Below the pieces are notes generated by a model. It saw nothing but the letters and a program-made list of their open reading frames with translations, had not been told where the DNA came from and did no database searches. A DNA stretch of 64,000 bases from an uncultured Desulfovibrio sp. (GTDB lineage Bacteria > Desulfobacterota > Desulfovibrionia > Desulfovibrionales > Desulfovibrionaceae), in contig CAJXRQ010000006.1 in the NCBI GenBank assembly GCA_913060505.1, forward strand, positions 58,750 to 122,749, given 5' to 3'. This document shows, piece by piece, positions 835-16,769 of this stretch. Positions within the stretch are counted from its first letter, which is position 1. Every line of letters begins with the position of its first letter. Both the position numbers and the translations under genes were made by a program.

Positions 835-1299
835 TCCACTCCACTTTCTTCTCCAAACAATAAGCACAAATTATATAATCCACCAGCCAAAAATGAATAT
901 CCATTGGCACATTACCTTCTCCGCTGCTTGAATTAATCCAGACAATTGAACCATGATATTTTCTCAACTCCCCTCTTTGGTAGATTGGGGACTGCAAATG
1001 AAATTTGAATAGCCTAATCTGTCTTTTTTTCACAATTTTCTGTCTTTTAAGTGATCTAATCTCCATCTTCCATTTTTCGCTAAGTAGCGGACTTTTTCCG
1101 CGGAACGCCTTGACACAACTACTAATCACAAACTAGTATCCTTAAAGTGTTACCATTCTTATTTTCGTGCGAATTAGGCTGAAATTGAACTGATTGGCCG
1201 TAAGTCAGGAATGGTATCCATTGTCAGGATACACACAAAGTCATACCGGCGGTGGCTCCGGTGGGCTTGTCTTCAATCCACCCCAAAAAGGAGGGAATC

Positions 1300-2559
1300 A
1301 TGAAACAGATTGAAGGTGTGATGTACCAAACCAGCGCACCCAAAGGTAAAGACCCGGACAAATTGTTTTTCGTCCAGGTGGATGCCGACAAGTGCGAAGG
1401 CTGCGGCTCCTGTGAGGAGGTCTGTGCGACAGGGGCCATTCAGTCCATTAACGACGATGATATCCATCAGGTAGTTGATCCGGCTGCTTGCATGAACTGT
1501 GGTCAGTGTTTGGTAAACTGTCCGTATGGTGCCATCTACGAGGGAGTTTCCTACGTGGATGAAATTCTTGAAAAATTGAAAGATCCCAACACTATTGTCG
1601 TTTCCATGCCGGCACCGGCCGTACGCTACGGGCTGGGGGAATGTTTCGGAGCTCCCACCGGCACGTATGTTGGTGGAAAAATGCACACGGCACTGCGCAA
1701 GCTCGGTTTCGACTACATTTGGGACAACGAATTCTCGGCTGACGTGACTATTATGGAAGAGGGAACCGAACTCATCCAGCGCGTCAATGAACAGGGCAAG
1801 AAAGACGCTCGTCCGTTACCGCAATTCACTTCCTGCTGCCCGGGCTGGGTCAAATTCGCGGAAACGTTCTATCCGGACCTTATGCCCAACCTGTCGAGCT
1901 GCAAATCGCCCATCGGCATGCTTGGTCCCCTGACCAAGACTTACGGTGCGCAGGAAACCAAGATTCCGGGCAAAAAGATCTACAGCGTATCGATCATGCC
2001 TTGCATCGCCAAGAAGTACGAAGGCATGCGCCCCGAGTTGGACGATAGCGGCTTCCGCGATATCGACGCGACCATCAACACTCGCGAGCTGGCTTATATG
2101 ATCAAGCAAGCCGGTATCAACTTCAACAGCCTGCCGGACCAGAGGCCTGACCCAGTGCTGGGCGATTCCACTGGTGCGGCAACGATCTTCGGCAACAGCG
2201 GTGGTGTCATGGAAGCGGCACTGCGGCTTGCTTACGAAGTGCTTTCCGGCCAGAGGCTCGACAATCCGGACATCAAGGTCGTCCGCACCCACGAAGGCAT
2301 CAACACTGCCGACGTCAAGGTTCCCGGATTCGGAACGGTCAAGGTGGCTGTGGCCAGTGGTTTGGACAATGCGGCCAAGCTTTGCGACGAAGTTCGCGCA
2401 GGCAAATCGCCCTACCACTTCATCGAGGTCATGACTTGTCCCGGCGGTTGCGTAAACGGCGGCGGACAGCCCCTGGATCCGGAAATCAGGGCATCGCTGT
2501 TCAGAAGCACCGTTGCTCAGATCAACAAGCGTTTCCGGGCGCGCAAGGCCTCAGCGTAA
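1300..2559 (+). CDS. hydA: Periplasmic [FeFe] hydrogenase, large catalytic subunit
   Basis: Catalyses reversible H2 oxidation. The protein has 419 residues, close to the 421 of the Desulfovibrio enzyme. An N-terminal 2x[4Fe-4S] ferredoxin domain carries CEGCGSCEEVC (C32-C42) and CMNCGQCLVNC (about residues 63-73). The H-cluster domain has all three signatures: TSCCPGW, MPCIAKKYE and EVMTCPGGCVNGGGQP. ATG 1300 is chosen because AAGGAGG lies 5-11 bases upstream; the longer frame from 1252 adds an unrelated 16 residues. The large subunit has no signal peptide and is expected to be exported together with the Tat-tagged small subunit that follows 13 bases later. Confidence 0.97.
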   Translation: MKQIEGVMYQTSAPKGKDPDKLFFVQVDADKCEGCGSCEEVCATGAIQSINDDDIHQVVDPAACMNCGQCLVNCPYGAIYEGVSYVDEILEKLKDPNTIVVSMPAPAVRYGLGECFGAPTGTYVGGKMHTALRKLGFDYIWDNEFSADVTIMEEGTELIQRVNEQGKKDARPLPQFTSCCPGWVKFAETFYPDLMPNLSSCKSPIGMLGPLTKTYGAQETKIPGKKIYSVSIMPCIAKKYEGMRPELDDSGFRDIDATINTRELAYMIKQAGINFNSLPDQRPDPVLGDSTGAATIFGNSGGVMEAALRLAYEVLSGQRLDNPDIKVVRTHEGINTADVKVPGFGTVKVAVASGLDNAAKLCDEVRAGKSPYHFIEVMTCPGGCVNGGGQPLDPEIRASLFRSTVAQINKRFRARKASA

Positions 2560-2572
2560 GGAGGACCGAACC

Positions 2573-2905
2573 ATGAAAATGAATAGACGCGGTTTCATGA
2601 AAGCCTGCGGTGTCATGGCCGGGTATGCCGTGCTCGGTGTCAACCTGACCAAGGAAGCTGTTGCCAGCGCCATGGATTTTGTCGCCATGCGCCAAAAATC
2701 CGTATATAACGCTGACGCCAAGCTCTACAAGTTCAGGAAGTCTCAGGACAACCCCATGATCAAAAAGATCTACGATCCGAAAAAGGGATTCCTGCACGAC
2801 GGCCCCTGCGGACACAAGTCCCACCATCTGCTGCACACGCATTACATTGATCGCAGCGCACACTTGCAGGCTCTCAAGAAAAAAGGCCTCAAGTTCAAGA
2901 TCTAA
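2573..2905 (+). CDS. hydB: Periplasmic [FeFe] hydrogenase, small subunit with Tat signal
   Basis: A protein of 110 residues. The N-terminus has a twin-arginine motif (NRRGFMKACG) followed by a short hydrophobic stretch, so it carries the Tat export signal for the HydAB dimer. The rest matches the small HydB/HydS domain that wraps around the large subunit in Desulfovibrio. The start at 2573 follows an AAGGAGGA site that overlaps the hydA stop codon, so the two genes are translationally linked. The gene is full length with nothing broken. Confidence 0.95.
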   Translation: MKMNRRGFMKACGVMAGYAVLGVNLTKEAVASAMDFVAMRQKSVYNADAKLYKFRKSQDNPMIKKIYDPKKGFLHDGPCGHKSHHLLHTHYIDRSAHLQALKKKGLKFKI

Positions 2906-3099: not shown

Positions 3100-3215
3100 A
3101 TAGAACACCTCCCACCGGAGTAGTTCGCCTGCGGAAAGGGTCTCCCTGACTCCCAGGGTGGAACCACCCCGGTCCATCTATCAAATGGGCGAGGCCGGGA
3201 GGCGTGGTTTCCCTC
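3100..3215 (+). ncRNA. Structured leader RNA, candidate riboswitch (possibly Moco-type)
   Basis: The 385 bases between hydB and the next gene hold a compact foldable element. A closing helix pairs CCTCCC (3108-3113) with GGGAGG (3197-3202). Inside it are the hairpin GGGTGG-AA-CCACCC (about 3147-3160) and a small AGGG/CCCT hairpin. The order of conserved-looking pieces (CTCC, CTGACT, GGAACCAC, ATGGGCGA, GGAGGCG) reminds me of the molybdenum-cofactor RNA motif, but I recall that consensus only roughly. A further hairpin CAAAGAG/CTCTTTG (about 3228-3257) before a T-rich stretch could be its expression platform. The element sits 77 bases before the TM1266-like gene. Confidence 0.4.
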
Positions 3216-3291
3216 CTTTTCCATCGCCAAAGAGTTCGATAGGGGCCGGGCTCTTTGTTTCCGGCATAAGCCACACAACGAGGAAATATCG

Positions 3292-3534
3292 ATGCAGAAA
3301 CGACTCGGTATCATTGGCATCATCATCAAGGATCGCAACAAGGCGGCTGCCACAGTCAACGCTATTCTCAGCGAATACGGAGAAATGATTGTCGGTCGCA
3401 TGGGGCTTCCGTTCAGGGATCGAGGTCTGAGCATCATCGACCTGATTATTGAAGCCAACACCGACGAGGTGGGTGCATTGACCGGCAAACTCGGCATGCT
3501 CGAAGGAGTCCAGGTCAAATCGCTGTTGGTCTGA
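3292..3534 (+). CDS. TM1266-type iron-only hydrogenase system small regulator
   Basis: An 80-residue ACT-like protein (KRLGIIGIIIKDR, then IVGRMGLPFRDRGLSIIDLIIEA, then GKLGMLEGVQVKS). This family is commonly encoded next to [FeFe]-hydrogenase maturation genes and is annotated as an iron-only hydrogenase system regulator; its ligand is not established. The pattern is that of NikR/ACT ligand-binding halves without a DNA-binding domain. GAGGAA precedes the ATG. It is the first gene after the structured leader and is followed by the aspartase-like gene and hydF, suggesting one maturation operon. Confidence 0.85.
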   Translation: MQKRLGIIGIIIKDRNKAAATVNAILSEYGEMIVGRMGLPFRDRGLSIIDLIIEANTDEVGALTGKLGMLEGVQVKSLLV

Positions 3535-3572
3535 TTTCGATCCCGAAACATTCATGCGATCCGAGGACGGAT

Positions 3573-5009
3573 ATGCAATCTGCAAAAGCAGCTGAAACCC
3601 GGCAGGAACATGACGGGCTGGGCACGCTTGACGTGCCTGCGGAAGCATACTGGGGCATCCACACCATGCGGGCCGTGCGGAATTTTCCCTTCTCAGGATA
3701 CAGGTTGCACCCGGCGTTCATCAGAGCCTTCGCTCAGGTGAAACAGGCCTGTGCACGGACCAATGCATTTCTCGGTTTCATGCCCGAAGAACGCGCACAG
3801 GCCATCATGGATGCCTGCGCCGAAATAGCGGAAGGAAAACTTGCCGACCAAATCGTGGTCGATCCGTTTCAGGGTGGTGCCGGAACCTCGACCAACATGA
3901 ATTTCAACGAGGTCATTGCCGGACGTGCCGCAGAACTCTTGAGCGGCGATAGGGGGGACCGTTTTCTGGTTCACCCTATCCGCGACGTCAACATGCATCA
4001 ATCCACCAACGACGTATATCCTACGGCGTTGCGTGTAGCCGTTCTCTTTGAACTGGAGCAACTTGAACAGGCCATATCGCGCTTGCAGGAGGCTCTTCAG
4101 GAACGGGAACAGGCCTTCCGCGAAGTGGTCAAGGTGGCCCGCACCGAATTGACCGACGCCGTACCCATGACTCTTGATATGACTTTCGGCGCCTTTGCCG
4201 ATGCCGTTGCCCGGGACAGATGGCGAATCTTCAAATGCCGGGAACGGCTCAAGCGGGTCAATCTCGGAGGTACGGCAATCGGAACCGGGCTGGGTGCTCC
4301 ACGGGACTATGTCCTCTCCGTGGCCGGCAATTTGGCGGCCATCACGGGCTTGCCTGTCTCCCGAGCCGAAAATCTGGTTGAAGCCACCCAGAACATGGAC
4401 GTTTTCGTGGAAGTCTCCGGCATGCTCAAGGCATGCGCGACCAACCTGATGAAAATAGCCTCGGACTTGCGGCTTCTCTCTTGCGGACCTGATACAGGAC
4501 TTGGAGAAATCACCCTTCCGCCACTCCAGGCAGGTTCTTCCATCATGGCAGGAAAAATCAATCCGGTCATGCCGGAAGCGGTGACACAGGCGGCCATTCG
4601 CGTCATGTCCAACGATCAGGCGGTGACGCTTGCAGCCTCAATGGGGCAACTGGAACTCAACCACCTCCTGCCGCTCATAGCCCATGCCATGCCGGAATCA
4701 CTGGATCTACTCACCGCGGCTTGCCGGGGATTGTCCGAACATTGTGTTCCCGGCATCAGGGCCAACAAAAAACGCTGTGCCGAGCATGTGGAGCAAAGCA
4801 AGGCATTGGCAACGGTGCTGGTTCCCGCTTTGGGCTATGATCACGTGGAAAATCTGGTTGTCGAAGCCAAAGCCTCGGGCCGGTCAATACGCCAACAGGC
4901 TGTCAGCATGGGGGTTGCCTCTCCCGAGGCTGTAGAGCGGATGCTTTCCCCTCGCCAGTTGTGCAAGCTGGGTTTTACGCCCGGAGAATTCAAGGAATTG
5001 CAAAAATGA
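3573..5009 (+). CDS. aspA: Aspartate ammonia-lyase (fumarase/aspartase superfamily)
   Basis: A protein of 478 residues, the normal length for class II fumarase/aspartase enzymes, which split aspartate into fumarate and ammonia. The superfamily signature GSSIMAGKINPV is intact at about residue 319, and TSTNMNFNEV and HQSTNDVYPTALR mark the other two conserved active-site regions. The position between a TM1266-type gene and hydF is a recurrent arrangement in [FeFe]-hydrogenase maturation loci, where aspartase is thought to serve cofactor assembly or its nitrogen supply. That role is inference from context. Fumarase activity is less likely but cannot be excluded from motifs alone. Confidence 0.88.
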   Translation: MQSAKAAETRQEHDGLGTLDVPAEAYWGIHTMRAVRNFPFSGYRLHPAFIRAFAQVKQACARTNAFLGFMPEERAQAIMDACAEIAEGKLADQIVVDPFQGGAGTSTNMNFNEVIAGRAAELLSGDRGDRFLVHPIRDVNMHQSTNDVYPTALRVAVLFELEQLEQAISRLQEALQEREQAFREVVKVARTELTDAVPMTLDMTFGAFADAVARDRWRIFKCRERLKRVNLGGTAIGTGLGAPRDYVLSVAGNLAAITGLPVSRAENLVEATQNMDVFVEVSGMLKACATNLMKIASDLRLLSCGPDTGLGEITLPPLQAGSSIMAGKINPVMPEAVTQAAIRVMSNDQAVTLAASMGQLELNHLLPLIAHAMPESLDLLTAACRGLSEHCVPGIRANKKRCAEHVEQSKALATVLVPALGYDHVENLVVEAKASGRSIRQQAVSMGVASPEAVERMLSPRQLCKLGFTPGEFKELQK

Positions 5010-5039
5010 GTATACAGACCCGATTCGCACGGAGGAAGC

Positions 5040-6272
5040 ATGTCCGGTAAAGCACCACGCGGTATCAGGCTTGTCATTGCCCTTGCAGGACGGCGCAATG
5101 CCGGAAAATCTTCCCTGATCAACGCCATCACGGGACAGGAAACCGCCATTGTTTCGGACACACCCGGCACCACCACGGACCCGGTCGCCAAGCACTACGA
5201 ATTGCTTCCGTTGGGGCCGGTAACATTTTACGACACGGCCGGGCTGGATGATGAAGGCGAGTTGGGGGAACTGCGCGTCAAGGCGACCCGCAAAATCCTC
5301 TATCGTTGCGATGTCGCAGTCATCGTTCTTGGCGAGGAAGGATTTACTGACCACGAGCGCGGGCTTCTTGAAACCGTCCGGGAATTGAAAGTCCCGTATA
5401 TTCTCGTCTGGAACAAGTCGGATTTGCGCCCCTGCGGCAGGAACGAAACCTTTCAGATCGGCAACGAAACGATTTCCTGTCTGAATGTTTCTGCACAGAA
5501 CGGAACTAACGTCAATGAACTGAAACAATCGATCATCAACTCGGCTCCACCCGAATATCGACAGGAGCGGCTGATCGTGGGCGACCTGATCAACGAAGGC
5601 GACTTCGTCGTCTGTGTTGTGCCCATAGACTTGGCTGCGCCCAAGGGGCGGCTTATTCTCCCTCAGGTTCAAGTGCTTCGGGAAATTCTGGACTGTGACG
5701 CTGTTGGGATCACAGTCAAGGAACGGGAAATTCAAGCCGTGTTGGAAGGATTCAACCGCAAACCGGCTCTCGTCGTCACGGATTCCCAAGTGGTCATGAG
5801 TGTGGCTGGCGATGTGCCCGACGAAATTCCCCTGACAACATTCTCCACGCTGTTCGCCCGATACAAGGGAGACCTGCCCCGGCTTGTTCGGGGAGCAGCA
5901 GCCATTGACGAACTGCAGGACGGCGACAACGTGCTCATCGGCGAAGCCTGTTCGCATCACAACGTGGCCGACGATATCGGTCGGGTCAAAATCCCGCGTT
6001 GGATGAGCAGATACACAGGCCGGGACCTGAACTTTGAGGTCTACTCCGGCCACGATTTCCCTGAGGACATGGAACGGTTCAATCTAGTGGTTCACTGCGG
6101 AGCCTGCATGCTCAATCGTACCGAAATGCTCAGGCGCATTGCCGAATGTGGACGGCGAGACATCCCGGTCACCAATTACGGCATCGCCATTTCCAAACTT
6201 CAGGGAGTTTTGCCGCGGGTTTTACGGCCTTTTGGTTTGGAACAGTCTTTGGCGATACACGGAGCCTTCTAA
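5040..6272 (+). CDS. hydF: [FeFe] hydrogenase H-cluster maturation GTPase HydF
   Basis: HydF is the scaffold on which the 2Fe subcluster is completed before transfer to HydA. The 410 residues begin with an Era-like GTPase domain: P-loop GRRNAGKSS at about residue 17, DTPGTT switch I, DTAG, and NKSD as the G4 motif. A dimerisation domain follows, then the C-terminal [4Fe-4S] site with ACSHH near residue 304 and HCGAC near residue 351, the expected CxH...HCxxC pattern. The start follows ACGGAGG. Canonical hydE and hydG are not in this window, so the other maturases must lie elsewhere. Confidence 0.96.
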   Translation: MSGKAPRGIRLVIALAGRRNAGKSSLINAITGQETAIVSDTPGTTTDPVAKHYELLPLGPVTFYDTAGLDDEGELGELRVKATRKILYRCDVAVIVLGEEGFTDHERGLLETVRELKVPYILVWNKSDLRPCGRNETFQIGNETISCLNVSAQNGTNVNELKQSIINSAPPEYRQERLIVGDLINEGDFVVCVVPIDLAAPKGRLILPQVQVLREILDCDAVGITVKEREIQAVLEGFNRKPALVVTDSQVVMSVAGDVPDEIPLTTFSTLFARYKGDLPRLVRGAAAIDELQDGDNVLIGEACSHHNVADDIGRVKIPRWMSRYTGRDLNFEVYSGHDFPEDMERFNLVVHCGACMLNRTEMLRRIAECGRRDIPVTNYGIAISKLQGVLPRVLRPFGLEQSLAIHGAF

Positions 6273-6457: not shown

Positions 6458-7462
6458 TTAACAAATCCTTGGCAACTGTTCGCCTTCCAACATGCCAAGC
6501 AGCCGCTTGCCGCCAAGCCGCGTAACCAACACAACCTTGCCCGGATTGGCATCAGTCATGGTCCCGATACGACAGGCATCCTTGCCCAGAGGGTCGGCGC
6601 GCATGATTTCAAGCGCCCGGTCAACATCCGCCGCAGGCAACACGCAGAGGAATTTCCCTTCATTGGCCAGATAGAGCGGGTCCAGACCAAGCAGGGAACA
6701 CCCGCCGCGGACCTCGTCTTTTACCGGCAAGGCGTCTTCCTCCAACTCGCAACAAACATTGGAGCTGACGGTGATTTCATTAAGGGTCGTGGCCAGTCCT
6801 CCACGGGTGGGGTCCCGTAAAACATGCACGTCCGGCAGTTCCTGAACCAGCCTGACCAGTAGATGATTGAGCGCGGCCGAGTCCGACTCGACCCGAGCCT
6901 CGAAATCCAGCCCTTCACGAGTTCCCAAAACGGTCAGACCGTGATCGCCAATGGTCCCGGAAACAAGCACGGCATCCCCCGGCCGGGCCCTATCGCCACC
7001 GGGAGCAGGATCAACAAGCACTTCACCAACTCCGGTGGTATTGATGAAAATCTTATCCGCTGCACCTCTGGGAACCACCTTGGTGTCACCGGAAACAACA
7101 TGAACCCCGGCATTTCGGGCAGCCTCGCCCATGGCAGCGACAATCCGCTCCAGATCGTCCATGGGCAAGCCTTCTTCAATAATATACCCACAGGTTATAT
7201 AGCGGGGCATTGCACCCATCATGGCCACGTCATTGACTGTGCCATGCACGGCCAATGAACCGATGTTGCCGCCCGGAAAAAATATGGGATCCACGGTAAA
7301 GGAATCCGTGGACATGGCTGTTTTTCCGGACAGGGAGAACACGGCCGCGTCATTGAGCCGGTCGAGTTCATCATTGCCCAGGTATTTCAGAAACAGCTCG
7401 GAAACAAGACGCTGTGAAGCGCGTCCGCCACTACCGTAATCCAGAAGAACTTTTTCAGACAT
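6458..7462 (-). CDS. hypE: Hydrogenase expression/formation protein HypE
   Basis: HypE dehydrates the carbamoyl group received from HypF to a thiocyanate on its C-terminal cysteine, the source of cyanide ligands for the [NiFe] active site. The protein has 334 residues. It begins MSEKVLLDYGSGGRASQ, the PurM-like N-terminus, and ends in the hallmark PRIC with the cysteine as last residue. ATG 7462 is preferred over the long upstream frame because it matches the family N-terminus and starts 4 bases after the hypD stop. It is the last gene of the eight-gene operon. hypF, hypA and hypB are not in the window. Confidence 0.95.
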   Translation of the reverse strand: MSEKVLLDYGSGGRASQRLVSELFLKYLGNDELDRLNDAAVFSLSGKTAMSTDSFTVDPIFFPGGNIGSLAVHGTVNDVAMMGAMPRYITCGYIIEEGLPMDDLERIVAAMGEAARNAGVHVVSGDTKVVPRGAADKIFINTTGVGEVLVDPAPGGDRARPGDAVLVSGTIGDHGLTVLGTREGLDFEARVESDSAALNHLLVRLVQELPDVHVLRDPTRGGLATTLNEITVSSNVCCELEEDALPVKDEVRGGCSLLGLDPLYLANEGKFLCVLPAADVDRALEIMRADPLGKDACRIGTMTDANPGKVVLVTRLGGKRLLGMLEGEQLPRIC

Positions 7463-7466
7463 ATGT

Positions 7467-8561
7467 TCAATCCAATTTGTATTTGTAATAGGCCGCGCAA
7501 CTGCCTTCGGTGGAAACCATGCACGGGCCGACAGGATTTGCCGGCGTACAAGCCTTGCCGAAAAGCGGGCATTGATCGGGCTGCAAAACGCCCTTGAGGA
7601 TATCCCCACACTTGCAGCCAGGAAGGGCCGGTCCCTCTTCAATGACAATGCCAAATTCTTTTTTGGCGTCGAACCCGGCCCACTCATCGCAAATTTCCAA
7701 CCCAGAGCCGGGAATCAATCCCAAACCGCGCCATAAGGCGTCACAAGGTTCGAAAACTTCATACATGACGTCCATGGCTTTCCGATTGCCGGAATCACTG
7801 ACAATGCGAGTGTAATCATTGCCCACCTGCGCCCCGCCATGGTTTCGCCATTCCACCATTTTCAGCAGAGACTGCAGGATATCCAGCGGCTCAAATCCCG
7901 TGACAACGGCAGACTTGCCATACGTTGCCGGAATGAATCGGTACGGTTCCACCCCGATGACGGCCGAGACATGCCCGGGCAACAAAAAGCCATCCAGGGT
8001 GATGGCCTGATCAGCCAGCAACGTATCCAACGCTGTCGGTACGGTTTTATGAAAACAGAGAATCCGCAAATTGCGGATGTCCTGCTCCCGGGCCATCTTC
8101 ATGGTTCCAGCAATGGTTGGAGCTGTGGTCTCGAACCCCACTCCGATGAATACCACCAGATTGTCGGGATTCTCCCGGGCCAGCTTGAGTGTATCAAAGG
8201 GAGAATACACCACCTTGACTCGCGCCCCGTCAGCCACTGCCTTTTTCAGGTTACGCCCCTTCTCGCCGGGCACACGCATGAGATCGCCAAAAGTAGCGAG
8301 AATGACGCCATCCCTGCCTGCCAAGTCCAAAAAGGCGTTGACCTCGGACTCATGCGTCACACACACCGGGCATCCCGGTCCGCTCAGATGAATGATTTTC
8401 TCGGGCAGGAGTGAACGCAAACCGCTTTGAAAAATCGCCACGGTATGCGTTCCACAAACCTCCATGAAACGAAACTCACTGTCCAGCGAGGCATTCAGCT
8501 TGTCGAGCAGCTGCCTACACAATTTCGGATCGTGAAATCGATCCAGAAGTTCAAAGCTCAT
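7467..8561 (-). CDS. hypD: Hydrogenase formation protein HypD
   Basis: HypD is the iron-sulfur scaffold that, with HypC, carries the Fe(CN)2CO unit of [NiFe] hydrogenases. The 364 residues contain the conserved cysteines in MEVCGTHT, SGPGCPVCVTH and the C-terminal GCKCGDILKG followed by CPLFGKAC and GPCMVSTEG. Start 8561 (MSFELLDRF) gives the usual length and lies 4 bases after the hypC stop. No defect is visible, so the Fe(CN)2CO assembly branch of this operon looks functional. Confidence 0.95.
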   Translation of the reverse strand: MSFELLDRFHDPKLCRQLLDKLNASLDSEFRFMEVCGTHTVAIFQSGLRSLLPEKIIHLSGPGCPVCVTHESEVNAFLDLAGRDGVILATFGDLMRVPGEKGRNLKKAVADGARVKVVYSPFDTLKLARENPDNLVVFIGVGFETTAPTIAGTMKMAREQDIRNLRILCFHKTVPTALDTLLADQAITLDGFLLPGHVSAVIGVEPYRFIPATYGKSAVVTGFEPLDILQSLLKMVEWRNHGGAQVGNDYTRIVSDSGNRKAMDVMYEVFEPCDALWRGLGLIPGSGLEICDEWAGFDAKKEFGIVIEEGPALPGCKCGDILKGVLQPDQCPLFGKACTPANPVGPCMVSTEGSCAAYYKYKLD

Positions 8562-8565
8562 GCAA

Positions 8566-8814
8566 TCAGCCCTCGACACCCGAGGGCACGCTACATTCAA
8601 CAATTTCGCCGAGGCTTTTCAAGCTCTCTTCGGCCTGCTCGCGGTCCAGAACACGCAAGGCAAATCCGGCATGGATGATCAGGAAATCCCCCAGCTTCGG
8701 AGCTTCCGGCAAGAGCATGGTGGAAGCCTTTATTGTGGTTTGACCCCGGTCCACCCGGCAGGTGGCCATTTCTCCCTGAATATCAAGCACCTCTGCGGGA
8801 ACGGCAAGACACAT
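8566..8814 (-). CDS. hypC: Hydrogenase assembly chaperone HypC
   Basis: An 82-residue chaperone starting MCLAVPAEVLDI. The invariant Cys2 that binds the iron-cyanide unit is present. HypC partners HypD and also binds the hydrogenase large-subunit precursor. Here the only large-subunit-like protein nearby is the atypical one at 13224-14903, which makes it the likely client. The start at 8814 gives the exact family N-terminus; the longer frame from 8925 is not supported. Confidence 0.94.
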   Translation of the reverse strand: MCLAVPAEVLDIQGEMATCRVDRGQTTIKASTMLLPEAPKLGDFLIIHAGFALRVLDREQAEESLKSLGEIVECSVPSGVEG

Positions 8815-8854
8815 AATGAACTCCCTTGGTGCGGCGTATGGCCGCAAATGTTGA

Positions 8855-10072
8855 TTACGAGGCAGAAGTGTTTCCAAGCAACTGCGAAGCCAGATACGCA
8901 TGCCCCTTGTCCATCGAGTATTCATAGTCCATGTCCCAATGAATCCGGGCGCTCATGGCTATATGCGGCAATGGGACGAACTTCGCAGAGCCAGAAAGCA
9001 ACGCACGGTAGCAGGGGTCCGCAATAACAAGATCCACGGAGGGATCGTTCATCAGCTTGCTGATTTCACCCTCATCGTCCGTATCGCGATCTGCCTTGCC
9101 GCGTTCCGCCAAAAGGCCGATGTTGCCTTCATTGCCCCGGAAAAGCGGATCGCTCGGCGTGACGGAAATCACATTGACCTGAGAAATGCCGAAGTCATGA
9201 TTCAGGCAGTACTTCAATCCATACCCAAGAGTCGGCTCCCCGACGACCAACACATGCTCATAAGGTGCAGACTGGACAGGTTTTGCAGGTGAAAAGTCCT
9301 TTTCCCCCTGCAGCAGGGCCATATAGGCCTCGCGTCCTGCCAATCCAACGGGCATACCCGCCACAAAGGGAATGCCGTAATCGGCATACATGCGTTCGGC
9401 CAATTTCAATCCGCTGGTGGAGACCACGGCATTCATGGCCGCTCCGGGCGCCTGGCGTACTCCTTCAAGCGAATCGGCCTGGCCGGGAACAGGAGCCGAT
9501 AAAACACCCACAGGCTCGAAACCGGTCGAGGCGATGGTCTCGAACAACGGGTCAAGATGGCTTTCCTTGCCTGTAGACAAATGAATGGCCCCAAGCACGT
9601 TGATGCCTTTCGGATGTTTGGGAGCATCCGGGTCCATGAATTTGTCGGCCAAAGCCAGCAATGCCTTGGAGGCGCCTTCGGGATACGGCTCGGAACCGGC
9701 TGTCGGCACCATGAACACGGGCATGTCCGTTCGGGACTCGATAGTACGGGCAAAGCCCTTGAGGTCCGTTCCGATGATCTCGGAAATAGGCGTTCCGGAC
9801 AAAGCCACAAAGCGGCGGTTCAACCCCTTTGCCGTTTCAACAATATTATTGATGAATTTATCGTCGTTCCCAAGAATGACGTCCATCTCCAGCAGGCCGG
9901 CACCGACGACCGTGGCTGGCCCGCGATACCAGCGGGGCTCGTCCTCGACGTTGATGTGCCATGCTCCGCCCGCCGGTCCGTAGACGACGACAAGCCCCTC
10001 GAAATCGTACAGGGCCGAGCTGACACCAAAATAGCCCGTGGCCAGAGGAAGAAGGTGGTGATATTCTTTCAT
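8855..10072 (-). CDS. Nitrogenase component 1-like subunit, beta type, without cluster cysteines
   Basis: A 405-residue member of the nitrogenase component-1/oxidoreductase superfamily (NifD/NifK/BchB-like). GMPVGLAGRE and LVVGEPTLGYGLKYCLN in the C-terminal half fit the repeated Rossmann domains. At the places where NifK-type proteins carry P-cluster cysteines, this protein has YGPAGGAW (instead of HGPxGC) and SGTPISEIIGTDL (instead of a cysteine before the xEIIGDD loop). The only cysteines are in KYCLN and ADPCYRA, far from the cluster site. ATG 10072 (MKEYHHLLPLA) follows AAAGGA and removes an unlikely 21-residue extension. It lies 32 bases after the partner subunit gene and probably forms a heterodimer with it. 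Confidence 0.85.
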   Translation of the reverse strand: MKEYHHLLPLATGYFGVSSALYDFEGLVVVYGPAGGAWHINVEDEPRWYRGPATVVGAGLLEMDVILGNDDKFINNIVETAKGLNRRFVALSGTPISEIIGTDLKGFARTIESRTDMPVFMVPTAGSEPYPEGASKALLALADKFMDPDAPKHPKGINVLGAIHLSTGKESHLDPLFETIASTGFEPVGVLSAPVPGQADSLEGVRQAPGAAMNAVVSTSGLKLAERMYADYGIPFVAGMPVGLAGREAYMALLQGEKDFSPAKPVQSAPYEHVLVVGEPTLGYGLKYCLNHDFGISQVNVISVTPSDPLFRGNEGNIGLLAERGKADRDTDDEGEISKLMNDPSVDLVIADPCYRALLSGSAKFVPLPHIAMSARIHWDMDYEYSMDKGHAYLASQLLGNTSAS

Positions 10073-10104
10073 GACAGTCCTTTTATATTGCGATGCGCTA
10101 CGCC

Positions 10105-11403
10105 TCAGATGAGAAAATCGTGACCGTAAATCCAATCGTGGTTGGAAATCGGATTAGCCATTGCTTCACGGGTCTGCTCCAGCATCCAGAGTGAGGCCTC
10201 GTAGCCATACTTTTGTTCCTGATAACGGGACAAGGGAACGTTGGCCGCATTGGTGCAATACATTCCGGCGTCGACCCCATAGGCGATTTCCACATGATCG
10301 AACGGCTGCGTCTGCCCGCAAAGTCCGGGATGCGAGGCGTTATAGACCATGATGTCCGGCGCCTGCTCGCGCAGCTGACCGATAAGTTCCCATTCATAGG
10401 GTTTGATGGTGCCCCGGGCGAAAAGCGTCTCCACGTTCAAGCCGTTTTCCAGCAGGAACAGGGCCAGCTCAAAGGGGCTGCCGTTGATGCTGCATCCAAC
10501 GGCCACGGATTTGCCGCGAAGCTCTTCGAAAATGGGTTCAGCCGCTTGCCGGGCCTTTTGTTCGTGGTTGTCGATGTCCAGGGAACGGCCCACGGCCTCG
10601 CCGATCTTTCCATACTGTTGCCTGATGGTAGAGAAACCATACGAAGTGGGCGCAAAGCATGTTGGTATGCCCATTTCCTTGTCCATTTTCCCGCTCAATC
10701 CATTAGCCAGAGGATGCAGGACCACTGAGGCGCGTCCTTTCGCCATGCGGGCAAATTCCTTCAGATCATGGCACAGGGGAATCTGGACAACTTCGTCCAT
10801 GCCGCCATCGGCCAGGACCTGATACAGTTCGCTCTGAGCGGACAAGGGCATGAATGTGCCGAGCAAATTAACCACGCCATCGTCAGGAACGCGAGGTTCG
10901 TGCTTCAGGAAGTCGAAAAACGAGGTATAGGCAGAAGTAAAAGGCGACTCCTTGAGACCGATGGTGATGGGAGCCATGGCCCCGAGAATGATCCGTTTGC
11001 CCGTGGATGCCTCCAGCCTGTTGATGACTCCCGTAAAATCGGTACCCAGAATGTAGTCCGGGCAGCCCACGATAAGAAAGATCACCTTTTCGTCGCGGCG
11101 GGCCGCAATATCCGCTATCCCTTTTTCCATTTTGTCCAAATGGTTGCCCATGGTCATGTCCAGTTCGGACAGGCAGAGCATGTAGAAACGTTCAGTAAAA
11201 CCACGAGCATGAGCCATGAAAGCCGAGTGCCGTAAACAGGCCGACGGTCCGACCATGACAGCCACGGACTCCGGCAATAACAGACAGGTTTCAATGACTC
11301 CCCAGCCTGCGAGGTTTGGCCCCACTCCTTCCAGAGGGGCAAAGGGAAAATCCGGTTTTTCCTTCAGGTCTTCCACCCTGATTCGGGCGTGATCCAAGTC
11401 CAT
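10105..11403 (-). CDS. Nitrogenase component 1-like subunit, alpha type, with three cluster cysteines
   Basis: A 432-residue NifD-like protein. C40 (VIETCLLLP), C56 (VGPSACLRH) and C114 (VGCPDYILGTDF) align by context with the three P-cluster ligands of NifD and the three [4Fe-4S] ligands of BchN-like proteins. GGAGGA lies 8-13 bases before the ATG. With the cysteine-less partner this would give one three-cysteine cluster site per heterodimer, as in dark-operative protochlorophyllide reductase, where an aspartate of the other subunit completes it. FeMo-cofactor ligands typical of true NifD are not recognisable. The substrate is unknown. Confidence 0.87.
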   Translation of the reverse strand: MDLDHARIRVEDLKEKPDFPFAPLEGVGPNLAGWGVIETCLLLPESVAVMVGPSACLRHSAFMAHARGFTERFYMLCLSELDMTMGNHLDKMEKGIADIAARRDEKVIFLIVGCPDYILGTDFTGVINRLEASTGKRIILGAMAPITIGLKESPFTSAYTSFFDFLKHEPRVPDDGVVNLLGTFMPLSAQSELYQVLADGGMDEVVQIPLCHDLKEFARMAKGRASVVLHPLANGLSGKMDKEMGIPTCFAPTSYGFSTIRQQYGKIGEAVGRSLDIDNHEQKARQAAEPIFEELRGKSVAVGCSINGSPFELALFLLENGLNVETLFARGTIKPYEWELIGQLREQAPDIMVYNASHPGLCGQTQPFDHVEIAYGVDAGMYCTNAANVPLSRYQEQKYGYEASLWMLEQTREAMANPISNHDWIYGHDFLI

Positions 11404-11428
11404 TATGATTCTCCTCCCTTATATGCGA

Positions 11429-12196
11429 TCAGGCAGCGTTACGGCTTGCCGCGAAATTGACGATGGTCCGGCCCAAATCGAAAAAACGCTTTGACGTGGG
11501 CAACGAACGATCACCCTCGACAATGGTTTTTCCTTCTTCCTCAAAACGGTGGATGGCCGTATCGCGCGGAATCACGCCGATAACCGAGGTATCCATTTTA
11601 TGCGCGAACTCCTCCACGCGCTCCACCTCGTCGTCCATATCCCGGCAGTTCAGAATCAGGCCGCCCAATTCCGCATAGTTGCGGTCCGCAAAGTTGCGCA
11701 AAGCCAAAATGATGTTCTTGGCGGCCAGCAAGGCCATCTTTTCACCCGAGGTGACGATACAGACCTTGTCTGCAAAGCCCTCACGCATGGGGACGGCAAT
11801 ACCACCGCACACGATATCCGCCATGATGTCGTACAGGACGACATCCGGCCGGTAGGTGTCATAGGCTCCCATTTCGTCCAGCAGATCGAACGCCGTGAGC
11901 ATGCCCCGCCCAAAACAGCCGACACCGGGTGTGGGGCCGCCGACTTCCAGACAGGCAACATCGCCGAATCCGCGCCTGATGATGGCGTCCAGCGCTTCCG
12001 GCTGCCCCTGCTCCTGCAAATATTGAAGGATGGGCGGCGGAGGTGTTCCGCCGAGCAGGTTGATGGTGGAATCGGTTTTTGGGTCGCAACCAAGCTGCAT
12101 GACGTTGTATCCGTCCAGCCCCAACGCTGCGGAAATGCAGGAAGTCACCGTAGACTTACCGATACCGCCCTTTCCGTAAATTGCTACCTTGATCAA
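11429..12196 (-). CDS. NifH-like ATP-dependent reductase (nitrogenase iron protein family)
   Basis: A 255-residue P-loop ATPase. Walker A is GKGGIGKST (residues 8-16). C94 in GVGCFGRG and C130 in IVCGGIAVP are the two cluster ligands that bind a [4Fe-4S] cluster between two monomers; R97 corresponds to the ADP-ribosylated arginine region of NifH. Such proteins pass electrons to a component-1-type partner upon ATP hydrolysis. The start is TTG at 12196, overlapping the stop of the radical SAM gene as TTGA and preceded by AAGGAG, so translation is coupled. No nifE, nifN or nifB is near, so this is a nitrogenase-like, not nitrogen-fixing, set. Confidence 0.93.
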   Translation of the reverse strand: MIKVAIYGKGGIGKSTVTSCISAALGLDGYNVMQLGCDPKTDSTINLLGGTPPPPILQYLQEQGQPEALDAIIRRGFGDVACLEVGGPTPGVGCFGRGMLTAFDLLDEMGAYDTYRPDVVLYDIMADIVCGGIAVPMREGFADKVCIVTSGEKMALLAAKNIILALRNFADRNYAELGGLILNCRDMDDEVERVEEFAHKMDTSVIGVIPRDTAIHRFEEEGKTIVEGDRSLPTSKRFFDLGRTIVNFAASRNAA

Positions 12197-13203
12197 AGCT
12201 GCTCTCCTTGCATTTTAAGTGAATGCCCCTTGTCCTTGCCTGCGGTCCTTCCGGCCCGTTTCAAAACATTTTTTGCCTCGTCAACCGAGACGTAGCGCTT
12301 GTGGGTGGTAATCTGAAATTCGTACTCGATCTTGTCCTTCCTGCTTTGCAGAAACGGATTGCAATTGGGCATGATCACGTTGGCCCCGCCCTGCGCCATG
12401 GCACGATACTGACCGTTGTCCGGATCCAGTGTCGCCACGGTGTTGGCCGCAGCCATATGCGTGTTCCCGGTGACTATCCTGGTCAGAGCAAAAACGCGCA
12501 GCATCAGTTCGATGTCCCCTGCGGCTTCATCCTTGAGCGGTGTTTGCGCATGGGGAATGAAGGGACCGATATTGATCATGTCCGGCTGAAATTCCTGAAA
12601 AAAAAGAATATCATCACAGAGATCTTCCAGCGTCTGGCCGGGTAATCCCACGATGTTGCCCACTCCGACCTGAAATCCGAGTTCACGCAACTCGTCGATG
12701 TTCCGCAAACGATCCTCAAGCCTGAATCCCGAGCGCATGCGCGTGTAAAGTTCGGGATTCATGGTTTCATGCTTCATGAGGTACCGCTCGGCCCCGGCAT
12801 CCCTGAAGGCAATCAAGTCCTCACGACAACGCCGCCCCAGACTCAGGGTGATGGCCACGTCGGCTCCGTCCAGAATTCGCTCAATGATGGAGCAGACCTT
12901 GGCGCGGGTATAATGCGGATCTTCCCCCGATTGCAGAACAACAGTCTTGAGCCCGGCCTCCGCAACGGCCAAGGCCGTGTTCACGATGTCGTTCCCACTC
13001 ATGCGAAACCGTTTGCATTGGTCATTATCCTTCAACAGGCCACAATACAGGTCGTTACATCGACAGTAGTTGGAAAAATGAACCACCCCCCGCAATTGGG
13101 CAGTGTCTCCGACCTGATCCCGCCGGACCCGGTCAGCTTCAGCGAACAGGGCATCCTGATTGCCCTGGTCTCGAAGCGCATCGACAATGGTTTCTCGGTT
13201 CAT
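12193..13203 (-). CDS. HydE/BioB-like radical SAM protein with altered cysteine motif
   Basis: A 336-residue protein with the fold pattern of the HydE/PylB/BioB group: SNYCRCNDLYCGL near residue 40, LQSGEDPHY, SLGRRCREDL, RYLMKHETMNPELY, VGNIVGLPGQTLEDL, and IGPFIPHAQTPL, where HydE has very similar text. The radical SAM motif is not the usual CxxxCxxC: the three cysteines read CxCxxxxC, and the position of the central cysteine holds Asp. I checked this codon by codon. Start ATG 13203 lies 20 bases after the stop of the hydrogenase-like gene. Whether it still binds [4Fe-4S] and SAM is open. It is unlikely to be the housekeeping HydE. Confidence 0.82.
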   Translation of the reverse strand: MNRETIVDALRDQGNQDALFAEADRVRRDQVGDTAQLRGVVHFSNYCRCNDLYCGLLKDNDQCKRFRMSGNDIVNTALAVAEAGLKTVVLQSGEDPHYTRAKVCSIIERILDGADVAITLSLGRRCREDLIAFRDAGAERYLMKHETMNPELYTRMRSGFRLEDRLRNIDELRELGFQVGVGNIVGLPGQTLEDLCDDILFFQEFQPDMINIGPFIPHAQTPLKDEAAGDIELMLRVFALTRIVTGNTHMAAANTVATLDPDNGQYRAMAQGGANVIMPNCNPFLQSRKDKIEYEFQITTHKRYVSVDEAKNVLKRAGRTAGKDKGHSLKMQGEQL

Positions 13204-13223
13204 GACAGCCACTCGCAGATTGA

Positions 13224-14903
13224 TTATTTTGCGTTCACGACGCTGGTACGTCCGGTATCCGTATCTTCGACAACCACAAGGCACGCGTTGCATGGGTCCA
13301 GCTCATGCACGGTACGGAAAATTTCCAGGGGGTGTTCGGGATCTGCAACCGCAGTCCCCACAAGAGCGCGTTCCAAAGGCCCTCGCACTCCACCTTCGTC
13401 ACGCGGAGAAAAATTCCACAGGGAAGGGATAAGATAGTCGTGGCTTTCGACCCGGTTGTTTTCCAACCGTATGGTATGCACCAGCGCTCCGCGCGGAACT
13501 TCCACGCAACCGTGCCCCACTCCCGAAGCAGGCAGGTTCAATTCCGAGCAGAGAGCACCACTTTCGTGCGGCAAGGACGCTTCCAGTTCATCCAGCCATT
13601 GCAAGCAGGCATCGGACAAAACCATGGACTCTGTGCCTCGCGACACGACACGACCGATGGTGGAATTAAGGGCCGCCAGAGACAGGCCGCAACCTTCGAG
13701 AATATCGGACGTTATCCGGCCAACAGCATCCGTTCCATGGGCAAGACCACCCAAAACCCTGGCTAACGGTCCGGCCTCGCAGGCCTCGCCACAAAGCCGC
13801 GGAGCAGGCAACCAGAAGGCGTTTGCCAACTTGTTCCAATGAAATGCAGGATCAGATTCCCCCGGTTGCAGGCGATAATGGTTTCGGTCCGTTTCATTCC
13901 AGTCAGGATCAGACAATTCAGAAATGTCGTCCACATGGTATGTCCGCACCGCCCACGCTCCGGGAACTCCCGTTCCCTCAGACTCCGTAGAGATGAATCC
14001 GCCGGGCAAAAAGGCGTGTTCCTGCCGGGGATGGGCAAAATCCTCCCAAGCCAGAAAAGCAGATCCCCGCCCGATGTCCGACCAATGCCCGTAAACCCTT
14101 GCCAACCGTTGCAGGTCTTCCAAAAACACTGTCTGGATGAAATCCTTGCATTGGCAAAGTAATCCCCGCAGTTGTCCAAGGACTTCAGGACCGAGATCCA
14201 TATTTTCCGGAAGCCCCCCTGGCCGATAGGCGGAAAAACCATCAGGACCGCATCCCAACAGGGACAAAGCTTGGGTGATAACACAGCCAGTTTTTAACGA
14301 CTCGAAGCTGTGGGAGGCCACAAGCAGGTGGAATTCATCCGGACCATGATAGTCCGGGGCCCCCTGCGACGAGAGGGAATCCATACCTTCACGAACGTCA
14401 AAAAAAGTCCGCAGGCGTTCCTTGGTATTCAGAAAATATTCCCGATCACGGTCGGACTGTCCGGCCAATCCGGCAGGATCAGCCCGAAGCGCCGAGGCAG
14501 GACATATCCAGTCCGAAAGGTGAAATTGGTAAACATGGAGCAGATGCTCCTGAATACATCGCAGGGATTGAACAATGCTGCGGACCTGAATGGCGCAATG
14601 CGGAAGGACGACGCCTGCCAAATCCTCCAGAGCACGAATTGCGGCAAGGGCGTGCCCGTCGTTGCACAGGCAGTGAGCCTGTTGAACGAGTTGCGGACGG
14701 CCCTGCGCATCAAGCCCACCCCGCAAAAGCAGGTTCATATTGCGCATCATTCGACCGGTGCTCCAGGCATCAGCCACCCGGCCGTCAGTAAGCCGGACGC
14801 GAATCACAAAGGTATTTCCCGTACACTCGACAACTTTCCGAGTGCACGATCCATGTTCCGTAGCTTGTTCTACCGCAAGAGCGGCAGCGGTATTTTTCGT
14901 CAT
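13224..14903 (-). CDS. Lone [NiFe]-hydrogenase large-subunit-like protein with altered metal motifs
   Basis: A 559-residue protein. Its N-terminal half has STGRMMRNMNLLLRG and AHCLCNDGHALAAIRALED, matching the L1 region RxCGVCxxxH of [NiFe] large subunits, but with C78-x-C80 in place of CxxC; H84 is kept. The C-terminal L2 motif is DPCNAC (C538, C541), as in DPCxxCxxH, but lacks the final histidine and continues 18 residues. Two to four cysteines could therefore still hold Ni-Fe. No small subunit and no maturation protease gene is adjacent. ATG 14903 has a GGGGAG site; the longer frame from 14972 starts inside the leader. It is first in the operon and the probable client of HypCDE. Confidence 0.8.
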   Translation of the reverse strand: MTKNTAAALAVEQATEHGSCTRKVVECTGNTFVIRVRLTDGRVADAWSTGRMMRNMNLLLRGGLDAQGRPQLVQQAHCLCNDGHALAAIRALEDLAGVVLPHCAIQVRSIVQSLRCIQEHLLHVYQFHLSDWICPASALRADPAGLAGQSDRDREYFLNTKERLRTFFDVREGMDSLSSQGAPDYHGPDEFHLLVASHSFESLKTGCVITQALSLLGCGPDGFSAYRPGGLPENMDLGPEVLGQLRGLLCQCKDFIQTVFLEDLQRLARVYGHWSDIGRGSAFLAWEDFAHPRQEHAFLPGGFISTESEGTGVPGAWAVRTYHVDDISELSDPDWNETDRNHYRLQPGESDPAFHWNKLANAFWLPAPRLCGEACEAGPLARVLGGLAHGTDAVGRITSDILEGCGLSLAALNSTIGRVVSRGTESMVLSDACLQWLDELEASLPHESGALCSELNLPASGVGHGCVEVPRGALVHTIRLENNRVESHDYLIPSLWNFSPRDEGGVRGPLERALVGTAVADPEHPLEIFRTVHELDPCNACLVVVEDTDTGRTSVVNAK

Positions 14904-15233: not shown

Positions 15234-16769
15234 ATGGCAATAAGAATAGGACGAATTGACGAACTCAGCCTGACGCAGGAAACCAAACAGAACAGCCTGC
15301 TGGCAGCAATAGCGAAAAGTGCGGAAGAACTGACGAGTGGAAAAGGCTGGCCCAACGGAGTCATAGATCTGATGGCCGACCTTGGGCGCATAACCCGTGT
15401 CAGCCGCGTATGGATTTTTCAGGTCATCGAAATCAATGACGACTATATCATTCAGGACTACCCCTTTGAATGGGCAGACTCAGCCGGGCATGCCCAGCTT
15501 TCCATGCCCAAATTCAACACGTTTCGAAGAGAAGTGAAAAACGCTTCTCCCGAGTATAAACAAATGCTGGAGAGCCGAAAACGAGGCGAATGGCAGAGCG
15601 TTATCGTATCCCAGCTGGATGCGGGAGAATTCAGAGAGAACCTTGAAGGACAGGGAATTCTCTCCATGCTCACCATCCCCATCATCGTGGAAGGAAAATG
15701 GTGGGGCATTCTGGGCTTTGACGACTGCAAACGGGAGTACCATTGGAGCGAGGTGGAAATTGCCCTGTTGCGGACCGCCACATACCTTCTCTCCAACGCC
15801 ATCCTGCGCGACAGGCTTTCCTCCAAGACCAAGCAGTTTGAAATTCTGAAGGGCATTACCGACGCCAGCACGTGGGAACTGGATCTCGTCAGCGGACATT
15901 TCTGGTGCAGCCCGGAAGTCTTCGCCTCCCAGAATGGGCTGACGGAAAACATCCATATGTCTCAGATCCGGGCACTCCGCCGCATTCATCCGCAGGATCG
16001 CAAAAACGTCTTTGCAAGCATCCGCGAGCACATCAGGGAGGGCAAAAACACCTTCCGCAAGGATTTGCGCGTTGCCCGCGACTGCGGCGAATATGTATGG
16101 ATTGAAATCATTGCACAACTTTCCACAAACGAAAAACACGAACTGCGCAAGCTCTCGGGCATTGCCGTGGAAATACTGAAACGCAAACAGGAAGAGGAAA
16201 AATTACGCCAAAAGGCCAACAAGGATCCGCTCACCGGGGTGGATAACCGCAGAAGCTTTGACAGGCATTTCGCCAAACTGATGTATCGATACAAGGAGTC
16301 CCACGAAATTTTCACCCTCTTGCTGTTGGACCTCGACCACTTCAAGAATGTGAACGACACATGGGGCCATGCCATGGGCGACGAAGTTTTGCGCCACATT
16401 ACGCGAATCTGCAAACGCAACTTGCGCGAGTCGGACCAACTGGCCCGCATTGGCGGCGAAGAATTCGCCATTTTGCTTTCCGGTATTGATGAAAATATGG
16501 CCCGAACCATTGGAGAACGCATTCGCATGGATGTCGAATCCCACCCCATGCAAACGAAAAACGGCCCCATCAGAATGACTTTGAGCCTTGGCGCCGCGGG
16601 CCTTGAACGGGATTCCGGAAGCAATTCCTGTGAGCAACTCTACCAACAGGCTGACAGCGCTCTGTACGCAGCAAAAAACAAAGGCCGGAACGCGCTGGTG
16701 GCTTGCCATGACATGGATGCAGCCGGTGAGAGATCCACATATGAATGGATTCAGCCGTCATGGTCCTAA
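15234..16769 (+). CDS. Diguanylate cyclase with GAF and PAS sensor domains
   Basis: A 511-residue soluble protein. A GAF-like domain covers about residues 20-190 (LTIPIIVEGKWWGILGFDD), a PAS/PAC domain about 205-320 (FRKDLRVARDCGEYVWIEI), and a GGDEF domain the rest. The active-site loop is GGEEF, an allowed active variant, and RESD five residues before it is an intact inhibitory I-site, so an active, product-controlled c-di-GMP synthase is expected. It is transcribed divergently from the nitrogenase-like operon across a shared 330-bp regulatory region. No strong ribosome binding site is visible before ATG 15234. Confidence 0.9.
   Translation: MAIRIGRIDELSLTQETKQNSLLAAIAKSAEELTSGKGWPNGVIDLMADLGRITRVSRVWIFQVIEINDDYIIQDYPFEWADSAGHAQLSMPKFNTFRREVKNASPEYKQMLESRKRGEWQSVIVSQLDAGEFRENLEGQGILSMLTIPIIVEGKWWGILGFDDCKREYHWSEVEIALLRTATYLLSNAILRDRLSSKTKQFEILKGITDASTWELDLVSGHFWCSPEVFASQNGLTENIHMSQIRALRRIHPQDRKNVFASIREHIREGKNTFRKDLRVARDCGEYVWIEIIAQLSTNEKHELRKLSGIAVEILKRKQEEEKLRQKANKDPLTGVDNRRSFDRHFAKLMYRYKESHEIFTLLLLDLDHFKNVNDTWGHAMGDEVLRHITRICKRNLRESDQLARIGGEEFAILLSGIDENMARTIGERIRMDVESHPMQTKNGPIRMTLSLGAAGLERDSGSNSCEQLYQQADSALYAAKNKGRNALVACHDMDAAGERSTYEWIQPSWS

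Follow-up and report, generated by a model that had tools for sequence, protein, structure and literature searches.

A nitrogenase-like gene set with HypCDE and an altered HydE as a candidate HydG-independent route to the H-cluster of [FeFe]-hydrogenase

In the standard maturation of [FeFe]-hydrogenases, tyrosine is the source of all five carbon monoxide (CO) and cyanide (CN) ligands that the H-cluster carries (PMC3105041). They pass through HydG, which uses tyrosine to form an Fe(CN)(CO)2 synthon; this unit is then reduced and paired by HydE and completed by HydF (PMC12752695), with ammonia derived from AspA (PMC11736057). In the maturation of [NiFe]-hydrogenases, HypCD hands Fe(CN)2CO to the large subunit in an ATP-triggered step (PMC11565642). 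The carbamoyl phosphate used by HypE and HypF gives CN, not CO; the anaerobic source of CO for the Hyp system is described as open, and making it from CO2 would need about -530 mV and ATP (PMC12134894). Here we describe an operon in a 64,000-nucleotide stretch of DNA, hereafter the window, from an uncultured Desulfovibrio sp. (contig CAJXRQ010000006.1, positions 58,750 to 122,749). The operon joins a NifH-like reductase and two nitrogenase component-1-like subunits (D and K) to a HydE-like radical S-adenosylmethionine (SAM) protein, a protein resembling the large subunit of [NiFe]-hydrogenase ([NiFe]-like protein), and HypC, HypD and HypE. We consider it moderately probable that this set provides a HydG-independent route to the H-cluster of the [FeFe]-hydrogenase HydA.

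Gene neighbourhood and the association with HydG absence

The operon comprises eight tightly packed genes on the minus strand, spanning 14903 down to 6458, and the family of each was confirmed by Pfam and NCBIfam (Table 1). A preliminary description made from the sequence alone had reported these eight genes as combining three metallocofactor worlds, which the family matches and the conserved loci bear out. It had also seen no nifE, nifN, nifB, small subunit or maturation protease adjacent to the operon, and our analysis gave the same result; HypA and HypB, the nickel insertion proteins, are likewise absent among the eight genes. While its list of eight genes was accurate, it overlooked the neighbours HydA, HydB, AspA and HydF, which lie at 1252-6272 on the plus strand, directly downstream of the operon and converging with it, with 185 bases between the end of HydF and HypE. 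The window has both HydF and a likely [FeFe]-hydrogenase client, whose HydA has all three H-cluster motifs intact (TSCCPGW, MPCIAK and EVMTCPGGCVNGGG). Across loci all three motifs were found in 13 of 14 rows, the 14th row being cut. Since HydB has a twin-arginine signal, the neighbouring [FeFe]-hydrogenase is probably exported. The location of AspA next to hyd genes has been described before (PMC11736057).

The genome of the window, which is on contig C6, comprises 3.16 Mb in 51 contigs (G000). In this genome, which is 81% complete, no match to the HydG model TIGR03955 reached the cut-off (best E 1.6e-9), and the HydE of the operon is the sole HydE above cut-off. A second HypD copy is located on contig C1. 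Because separate nif genes are present on contig C24, the operon set is probably not the nitrogenase of this genome. Another holder of the set, G191, has no other PF00148 protein.

To describe the distribution of the D gene, 199 genomes of the order (D matches at E up to 1e-30) and 326 genomes of the phylum (E up to 1e-25) were sampled. HydG was scored as present when TIGR03955 gave at least 425 bits, and a weaker class of matches (about 290-339 bits), which concerns G062, was counted as a paralogue. In the order sample, D was present in 15 of 100 HydF-positive genomes and in none of the 99 HydF-negative ones. Among the HydF-positive genomes it occurred in 11 of 18 without HydG versus 4 of 82 with HydG (Fisher p 2e-7, with relatedness ignored). 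The phylum sample gave 5/43 HydF-positive and 0/283 HydF-negative genomes; the 43 include G289 and G442, which fall just below the HydF cut-off, have HydG and lack D. The 35 HydF-positive genomes new in this sample held D in two of four without HydG and in none of 31 with it, so that both samples together (135 HydF-positive genomes) gave 13/22 versus 4/113.

Relatedness was respected by shuffling HydG status within genera. D was found in 3/4 HydG-less versus 1/18 HydG-positive genomes of genus g1, 2/2 versus 0/21 of g3, 1/1 versus 1/2 of g4 and 2/2 versus 0/12 of g13. Genus g7 (D in 2/9 HydG-positive genomes) has no HydG-less genome and adds nothing, and g2 and g28, which have only HydG-less HydF-positive genomes, were left out. 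Eight HydG-less genomes with D were observed, and none of 200,000 shuffles was as high. HydG at the true-HydG level was not found in 13 of the 17 holders, including the window genome and G121, which is 99% complete, and was present in the other four. Strict exclusivity of the operon and HydG was rejected, as these four genomes hold both. D-subunit relatives were also seen outside the order, in Thermodesulfobium narugense and Lebetimonas (P0070 and P0077). A second HydG-like family, at about 290-339 bits (e.g., G167:C1:1617584-1618891), was seen in one genus, often in genomes with true HydG as well.

Searching with a D-subunit profile gave nine loci from named genomes, and further loci came from other genomes. 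Gene maps were made for 20 distinct loci carrying the D family of the window, and the counts given here apply to the fetched stretches. HydE, NifH, D and K occur together in all 20 loci, HypC in 13, HydF in nine and HydA in six. The preliminary description was to be given up if the [NiFe]-like gene never accompanied the nitrogenase-like genes elsewhere; it lies alongside HydE-NifH-D-K in 16 of the 20. Of the four loci without it, two are on contigs that start at or inside HydE; in the other two, L014 and L015, it was found neither in the fetched stretch nor elsewhere on those contigs. The arrangement of the window recurs in L024, from G121 of the same genus.

In L015/L058, from Candidatus Desulfofervidaceae, D is 51% identical to that of the window. 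The genes form one run on a single strand, HydA-HydB-TM1266 regulator-HypE-HypC-AspA-HydF-HydE-NifH-D-K-HypF-HypD, in which the regulator belongs to the TM1266 family of iron-only hydrogenase regulators (TIGR03959, 108 bits; cut-off 61) and no HypA or HypB is found among the thirteen genes. This order is the plainest hint that the Hyp and nitrogenase-like proteins serve [FeFe]-hydrogenase. The order in L014/L059 is HydA-HydB-AspA-HydF-HydE-NifH-D-K-HypF. A divergent second form, with D only 23-26% identical, was found in G062 and G158, both of one genus (L033 1-18716 and L034 1818-17170). Here HydA-HydB-HydE-HydF is followed by two copies of NifH-D-K and by HypF-HypD-HypE, and HydG at the true-HydG level is absent from both genomes. 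HypF was seen in the clusters of L014, L015, L033 and L034. With the HydG of G178 as query on the cluster loci, matches above 50 bits reached at most 63 and lay at HydE positions. The second D of L034 (9962-11437) belongs to a very large family that is common in metagenomes and has named members in Oscillospiraceae (of 7,995 scored, 5,564 matched with an E of 1e-3 or lower); some of its members have about 830 amino acids and look like fusions.

Table 1. Genes of the operon and of the adjoining [FeFe]-hydrogenase cluster in the window (aa, amino acids)
Feature	Position	Strand	Length and family match
[NiFe]-hydrogenase large-subunit-like protein (NiFeL)	13224..14903	-	559 aa; PF00374 291 bits
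HydE-like radical-SAM protein (HydE2)	12193..13203	-	336 aa; TIGR03956 262 bits, cut-off 254.6
NifH-like ATP-driven reductase	11429..12196	-	TTG start; PF00142 251 bits
Nitrogenase component-1-like subunit D	10105..11403	-	432 aa; PF00148 94 bits
Nitrogenase component-1-like subunit K	8855..10072	-	405 aa; PF00148 89 bits
HypC	8566..8814	-	PF01455 and TIGR00074 above cut-off; 62 bits, cut-off 48
HypD	7467..8561	-	TIGR00075 417 bits
HypE	6458..7462	-	TIGR02124 434 bits; C-terminus PRIC
HydA, [FeFe]-hydrogenase large subunit, likely client	1252..2559	+	TIGR02512 478 bits, above cut-off
HydB, [FeFe]-hydrogenase small subunit	2513..2905	+	PF02256 70 bits; TIGR01409 (twin-arginine signal) above cut-off
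AspA, aspartate ammonia-lyase family	3573..5009	+	NF008909 620 bits, cut-off 510
HydF, [FeFe]-hydrogenase maturation GTPase/scaffold	5040..6272	+	TIGR03918 554 bits

The narrower aspA model TIGR00839 was not reached by the AspA of the window (507 versus 681). Elsewhere in the window, a GAF-GGDEF diguanylate cyclase gene (15234-16769) is divergent from the start of the operon, and a multi-PAS sigma-54-dependent regulator with a receiver domain is encoded at 30453-33305.

Altered sites in the HydE-like, [NiFe]-like and nitrogenase-like proteins

Alignment to the solved structure of Thermotoga maritima HydE showed that the radical-SAM motif of the window HydE is CxxxDxxC, with Asp in place of the middle Cys. 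Although the protein passes TIGR03956, the CX3CX2C motif is therefore lacking. Asp was found in all 19 readable rows of this clade (HydE2) and Cys in all 17 canonical HydE rows, among which L018 and L052 are the same gene. The Asp-type group is set apart from the other rows by a branch (support 98/95) that appeared in all 200 bootstrap trees. The HydE of the divergent L033/L034 form has the normal Cys motif. The Asp type is the sole HydE in 10 of the 11 HydG-less genomes with the D family of the window, G100 having both types, and both types are present in all four holders that keep HydG; given this distribution, the HydE of the Asp type accompanies the nitrogenase-like genes. That it is simply the ordinary HydE of the neighbouring hydrogenase was rejected in this form, considering its separate clade and the Asp in its motif. 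To our knowledge, no radical-SAM enzyme with a CxxxDxxC motif is known, and one literature search listed none. In loci L041-L044 (G105, G145, G181 and G186), HydF occurs with a Cys-type HydE, with no HydG above cut-off and no PF00148 protein.

The [NiFe]-like protein aligns with the Desulfovibrio gigas hydrogenase (1yq9) over most of its length. The Cys residues of CGVC and DPCIAC in 1yq9 face H100, C103, C561 and C564 (numbering of the 582-residue open reading frame). We take these four Cys to be the metal ligands, the first of them presumably being a terminal Ni ligand. All 15 rows retain C103, C561 and C564. A search that scored the 7,994 candidates sharing most words listed 74 proteins, 66 of them close relatives (P0201-P0266). 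Among the close relatives listed, the first Cys of the L1 motif is lost in 64 of 66, so that the four-Cys Ni/Fe site is incomplete; the second (fourth L1 position) is Cys in 66/66. DPCNxC is kept in most close relatives, and the Arg aligned to the CN pocket in all 66 listed. The protease-site His after DPCxxC occurs in 0/66, one row being gapped. All eight distant relatives have the normal pattern. No small subunit is encoded among the operon genes, and the protease site of a [NiFe]-hydrogenase is lacking. Its sequence looks more like that of a carrier than of an enzyme, one that might hold Fe(CN)2CO free of nickel; this role would suit it, as the Fe(CN)2CO pocket is kept while normal Ni binding and protease closure probably are not.

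These results bear on the view, taken in the preliminary description, that HypCDE have no candidate client other than the [NiFe]-like protein. That view found no support: HydA/HydB, AspA and HydF adjoin the operon, and this link recurs in other families of the phylum. The contigs of L014 and L015 lack the [NiFe]-like gene, and the protein itself has lost the protease-site His and one of the Cys ligand positions. Its premise, that HypCDE call for an Fe(CN)2CO-type centre, stands as far as an Fe-CN-CO unit is indicated but not as to the [NiFe]-like protein as client. HypC, HypD and HypE of the window all score above their model thresholds, so this part of the Fe(CN)2CO machinery is present. In HydG-less genomes, the H-cluster of HydA is the likelier client.

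The NifH-like protein has the features of a NifH-type reductase, with a P-loop (GKGGIGKST) and the two [4Fe-4S] Cys, C94 and C130, kept in 20/20 rows; the solved structures nearest to it are nitrogenase Fe proteins. The structure models of D and K resemble component-1 subunits. That of D aligns at similar Z with subunits of nitrogenase, NifEN, DPOR (dark-operative protochlorophyllide oxidoreductase) and Mar, and that of K (predicted local distance difference test 78.1) gave matches to subunits of NifEN and DPOR, with a best E of 1.5e-13. The six P-cluster Cys of nitrogenase are not all found across D and K: D keeps two of three P-cluster-type positions and has no conserved Cys before C56, and K has no invariant Cys in 20 rows. 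We take the aligned positions to be P-cluster ligands in nitrogenase. With single template sequences used for mapping, an invariant His of D faces the cofactor Cys of NifE (C315), and against NifD it sits beside the unaligned cofactor Cys (C307); these alignments gave no placement for the cofactor His. The idea that D lacks any cofactor ligand was withdrawn on account of this His. The D/K pair likely holds a small cluster that would pass electrons to another site. Scores against named nitrogenase-like reductase family models were far under their cut-offs, and in the D/K tree long branches meet, giving no firm place within the nitrogenase superfamily.

A candidate route and its alternatives

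What we observe is the gene set itself, linkage with HydF, HydA and AspA, an association with the lack of HydG, and the altered HydE motif and [NiFe]-like site; on these grounds the set likely stands in for HydG. For the chemistry we infer the following. HypCDE, with HypF where present, would make an Fe-CN-CO unit, its CN coming from carbamoyl phosphate via HypF and HypE as in [NiFe] maturation. The [NiFe]-like protein, where present, would receive this Fe(CN)xCO unit from HypC/HypD and hold it without nickel. HypCD normally adds less CO than an H-cluster requires, and cells without HydG would lack a source for the rest. Electrons driven by ATP would come from NifH/D/K and would most likely serve to make CO. 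We tentatively suggest that NifH/D/K reduces a C1 compound, CO2 being the likeliest, to CO on iron; it was chosen as CO maker because an ATP-driven NifH-type reductase fits the need for -530 mV and ATP. In R. eutropha, added CO2 was reportedly excluded as the direct source of CO (PMC12134894). Alternatively, and fitting nearly as well, NifH/D/K might reduce iron to Fe(I), beyond the radical chemistry of the altered HydE. The Asp-type HydE would then make or carry the diiron precursor and hand the iron to HydF, which with AspA-derived ammonia would complete the diiron unit and load HydA as in the standard route. A fully tyrosine-independent H-cluster, in which a nitrogenase-like CO maker, Hyp-built Fe-CN on a nickel-free carrier and a HydE with an Asp-ligated cluster together yield the diiron precursor, is possible though rather doubtful; CO would come from CO2 or from the carbamoyl group, and HydE would turn two units into the precursor for HydF.

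Several observations weigh against replacement of HydG by this set. HydG, canonical HydE and the operon coexist in G068, G089, G116 and G178. Nine of the 22 HydF-positive HydG-less genomes lack D; four of them (G105, G145, G181 and G186) have a Cys-type HydE, and in G189, G248 and G391 no HydE match was found, the other two (G023 and G038, 85% and 89% complete) having been left out of the HydE search. The HydG-family match of G062 (326 bits) exceeds the cut-off of 312. It was counted as a paralogue because the same class also turns up together with true HydG in genomes of its genus; if it is scored as HydG instead, the order table becomes 10/17 versus 5/83. HypC, HypD and HypE are missing from some clusters, among them that of G303 in the fetched stretch. 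The set lies apart from HydF in G100, G049, G185 and the four HydG-positive holders. Furthermore, HypCD makes Fe(CN)2CO, not Fe(CN)(CO)2, so that the ligand numbers (two CN versus one CN per iron) do not match and a further step would be needed. Finally, every holder (17/17) has a further PF00374 protein, and the Hyp proteins may thus have other clients; the proposal that they lack any other client in the holder genomes was rejected on this count. In G062 and G158 this other protein has 366-367 amino acids, matches both PF00346 and PF00374 and belongs to the complex-I-49-kDa/Ech type; it contains CSLC and DPCVSC and scores under the NuoD cut-offs; the name Ech is our presumption. HypA lies beside it in G062.

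The further PF00374 proteins would also suit the idea that HypCDE and the [NiFe]-like protein serve ordinary [NiFe]-hydrogenases, with the nitrogenase-like and HydE-like genes as unrelated passengers. We regard this as very improbable, seeing that the NifH-D-K-HydE core is intact in 20/20 loci, that 8 of 17 holders have two HypD, one of them inside the cluster, and that one Cys ligand position and the His of the protease site are gone from the [NiFe]-like protein. The separation from HydF in seven holders would fit a separate ATP-driven reductase, the first model of the preliminary description. Its active part would be D/K, paired with a partner of the Fe-CN-CO or [NiFe]-like kind, and the hydrogenase neighbourhood would be incidental. 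The presence of the [NiFe]-like gene in 16/20 loci and the invariant His of D, compatible with a bound cofactor, agree with this as well. Against it, the set is found in no HydF-negative genome (0/99 and 0/283), in L015 it shares a single run with HydF, AspA, HydA, HydB and a hyd regulator, 13/17 holders lack HydG, L014 and L015 do without the [NiFe]-like gene, and its HydE is the sole one in 10 of 11 HydG-less genomes with this D family. We therefore consider it unlikely.

It may also be that the set acts on [FeFe] maturation without replacing HydG, by reducing, repairing or protecting the diiron unit, HydF or HydA, while CO and CN come from elsewhere. Its coexistence with HydG and canonical HydE in four genomes would be natural in this case. 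G105, G145, G181 and G186, with HydE and HydF and with neither HydG above cut-off nor a PF00148 protein, suggest that another source of CO and CN may exist, and HydF made with HydE alone activated HydA to about 1% in vitro (PMC9431212). Auxiliary action of this kind leaves unaccounted for the HypC, HypD, HypE and in some clusters HypF, which are known Fe-CN-CO machinery, and the within-genus association with the lack of HydG; we hold it to be a fairly improbable explanation. A HydG-independent route to the H-cluster thus remains the reading we prefer.

If true, cells would have a second way to build the iron, CO and cyanide centre of [FeFe]-hydrogenase, and the rule that H-cluster ligands derive from tyrosine would be broken. 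The nitrogenase superfamily would gain a new function, the building of another enzyme's metal centre, and the [FeFe] and [NiFe] maturation machineries, treated as separate, would be joined. The set would also offer a candidate answer to the anaerobic CO source for Hyp-type assembly raised in PMC12134894, testable in hosts that naturally lack HydG.

Comparison with described systems

The preliminary description had called the operon undescribed-looking, and we found no paper describing this gene combination in the open-access literature searched; PMC9147875 and PMC4794192 bear on it indirectly at most. The parts belong to known families. Because HydEFG maturation, [NiFe]-hydrogenase and nitrogenase each fail to match at a defining feature and no description was found, the system as a whole is apparently new.

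It shares with HydE-HydF-HydG maturation HydF, AspA, a HydE-family protein and a HydA/HydB client, syntenic in several lineages, as well as the TM1266-type hyd regulator of the L015 run. It differs in that true-level HydG was not found in 13/17 holders, HydE has Asp for the middle Cys, and a NifH/D/K-like set and HypC, HypD and HypE (HypF in some) are added. With HypA-F maturation it has in common HypC, HypD, HypE with its PRIC end and, in some clusters, HypF; unlike that system, it has no HypA or HypB in the window operon or the L015 run, and its large-subunit-like protein is altered at a Cys ligand and the protease-site His and absent from L014 and L015. A NifH-like reductase with two component-1-fold subunits is likewise found in DPOR (BchLNB), chlorophyllide reductase, CfbCD and the methylthio-alkane reductase MarHDK, whereas here the models of those systems score below their cut-offs, D keeps two P-cluster-type Cys and K no invariant one, and the genes are linked to [FeFe] maturation. 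The methyl-coenzyme M reductase activation complex consists of other proteins, has another client and uses an ABC-type ATPase instead of NifH; it is ATP-driven, has nitrogenase-type clusters and activates the metal site of another enzyme (PMC12176620), an analogy for how the present set may operate.

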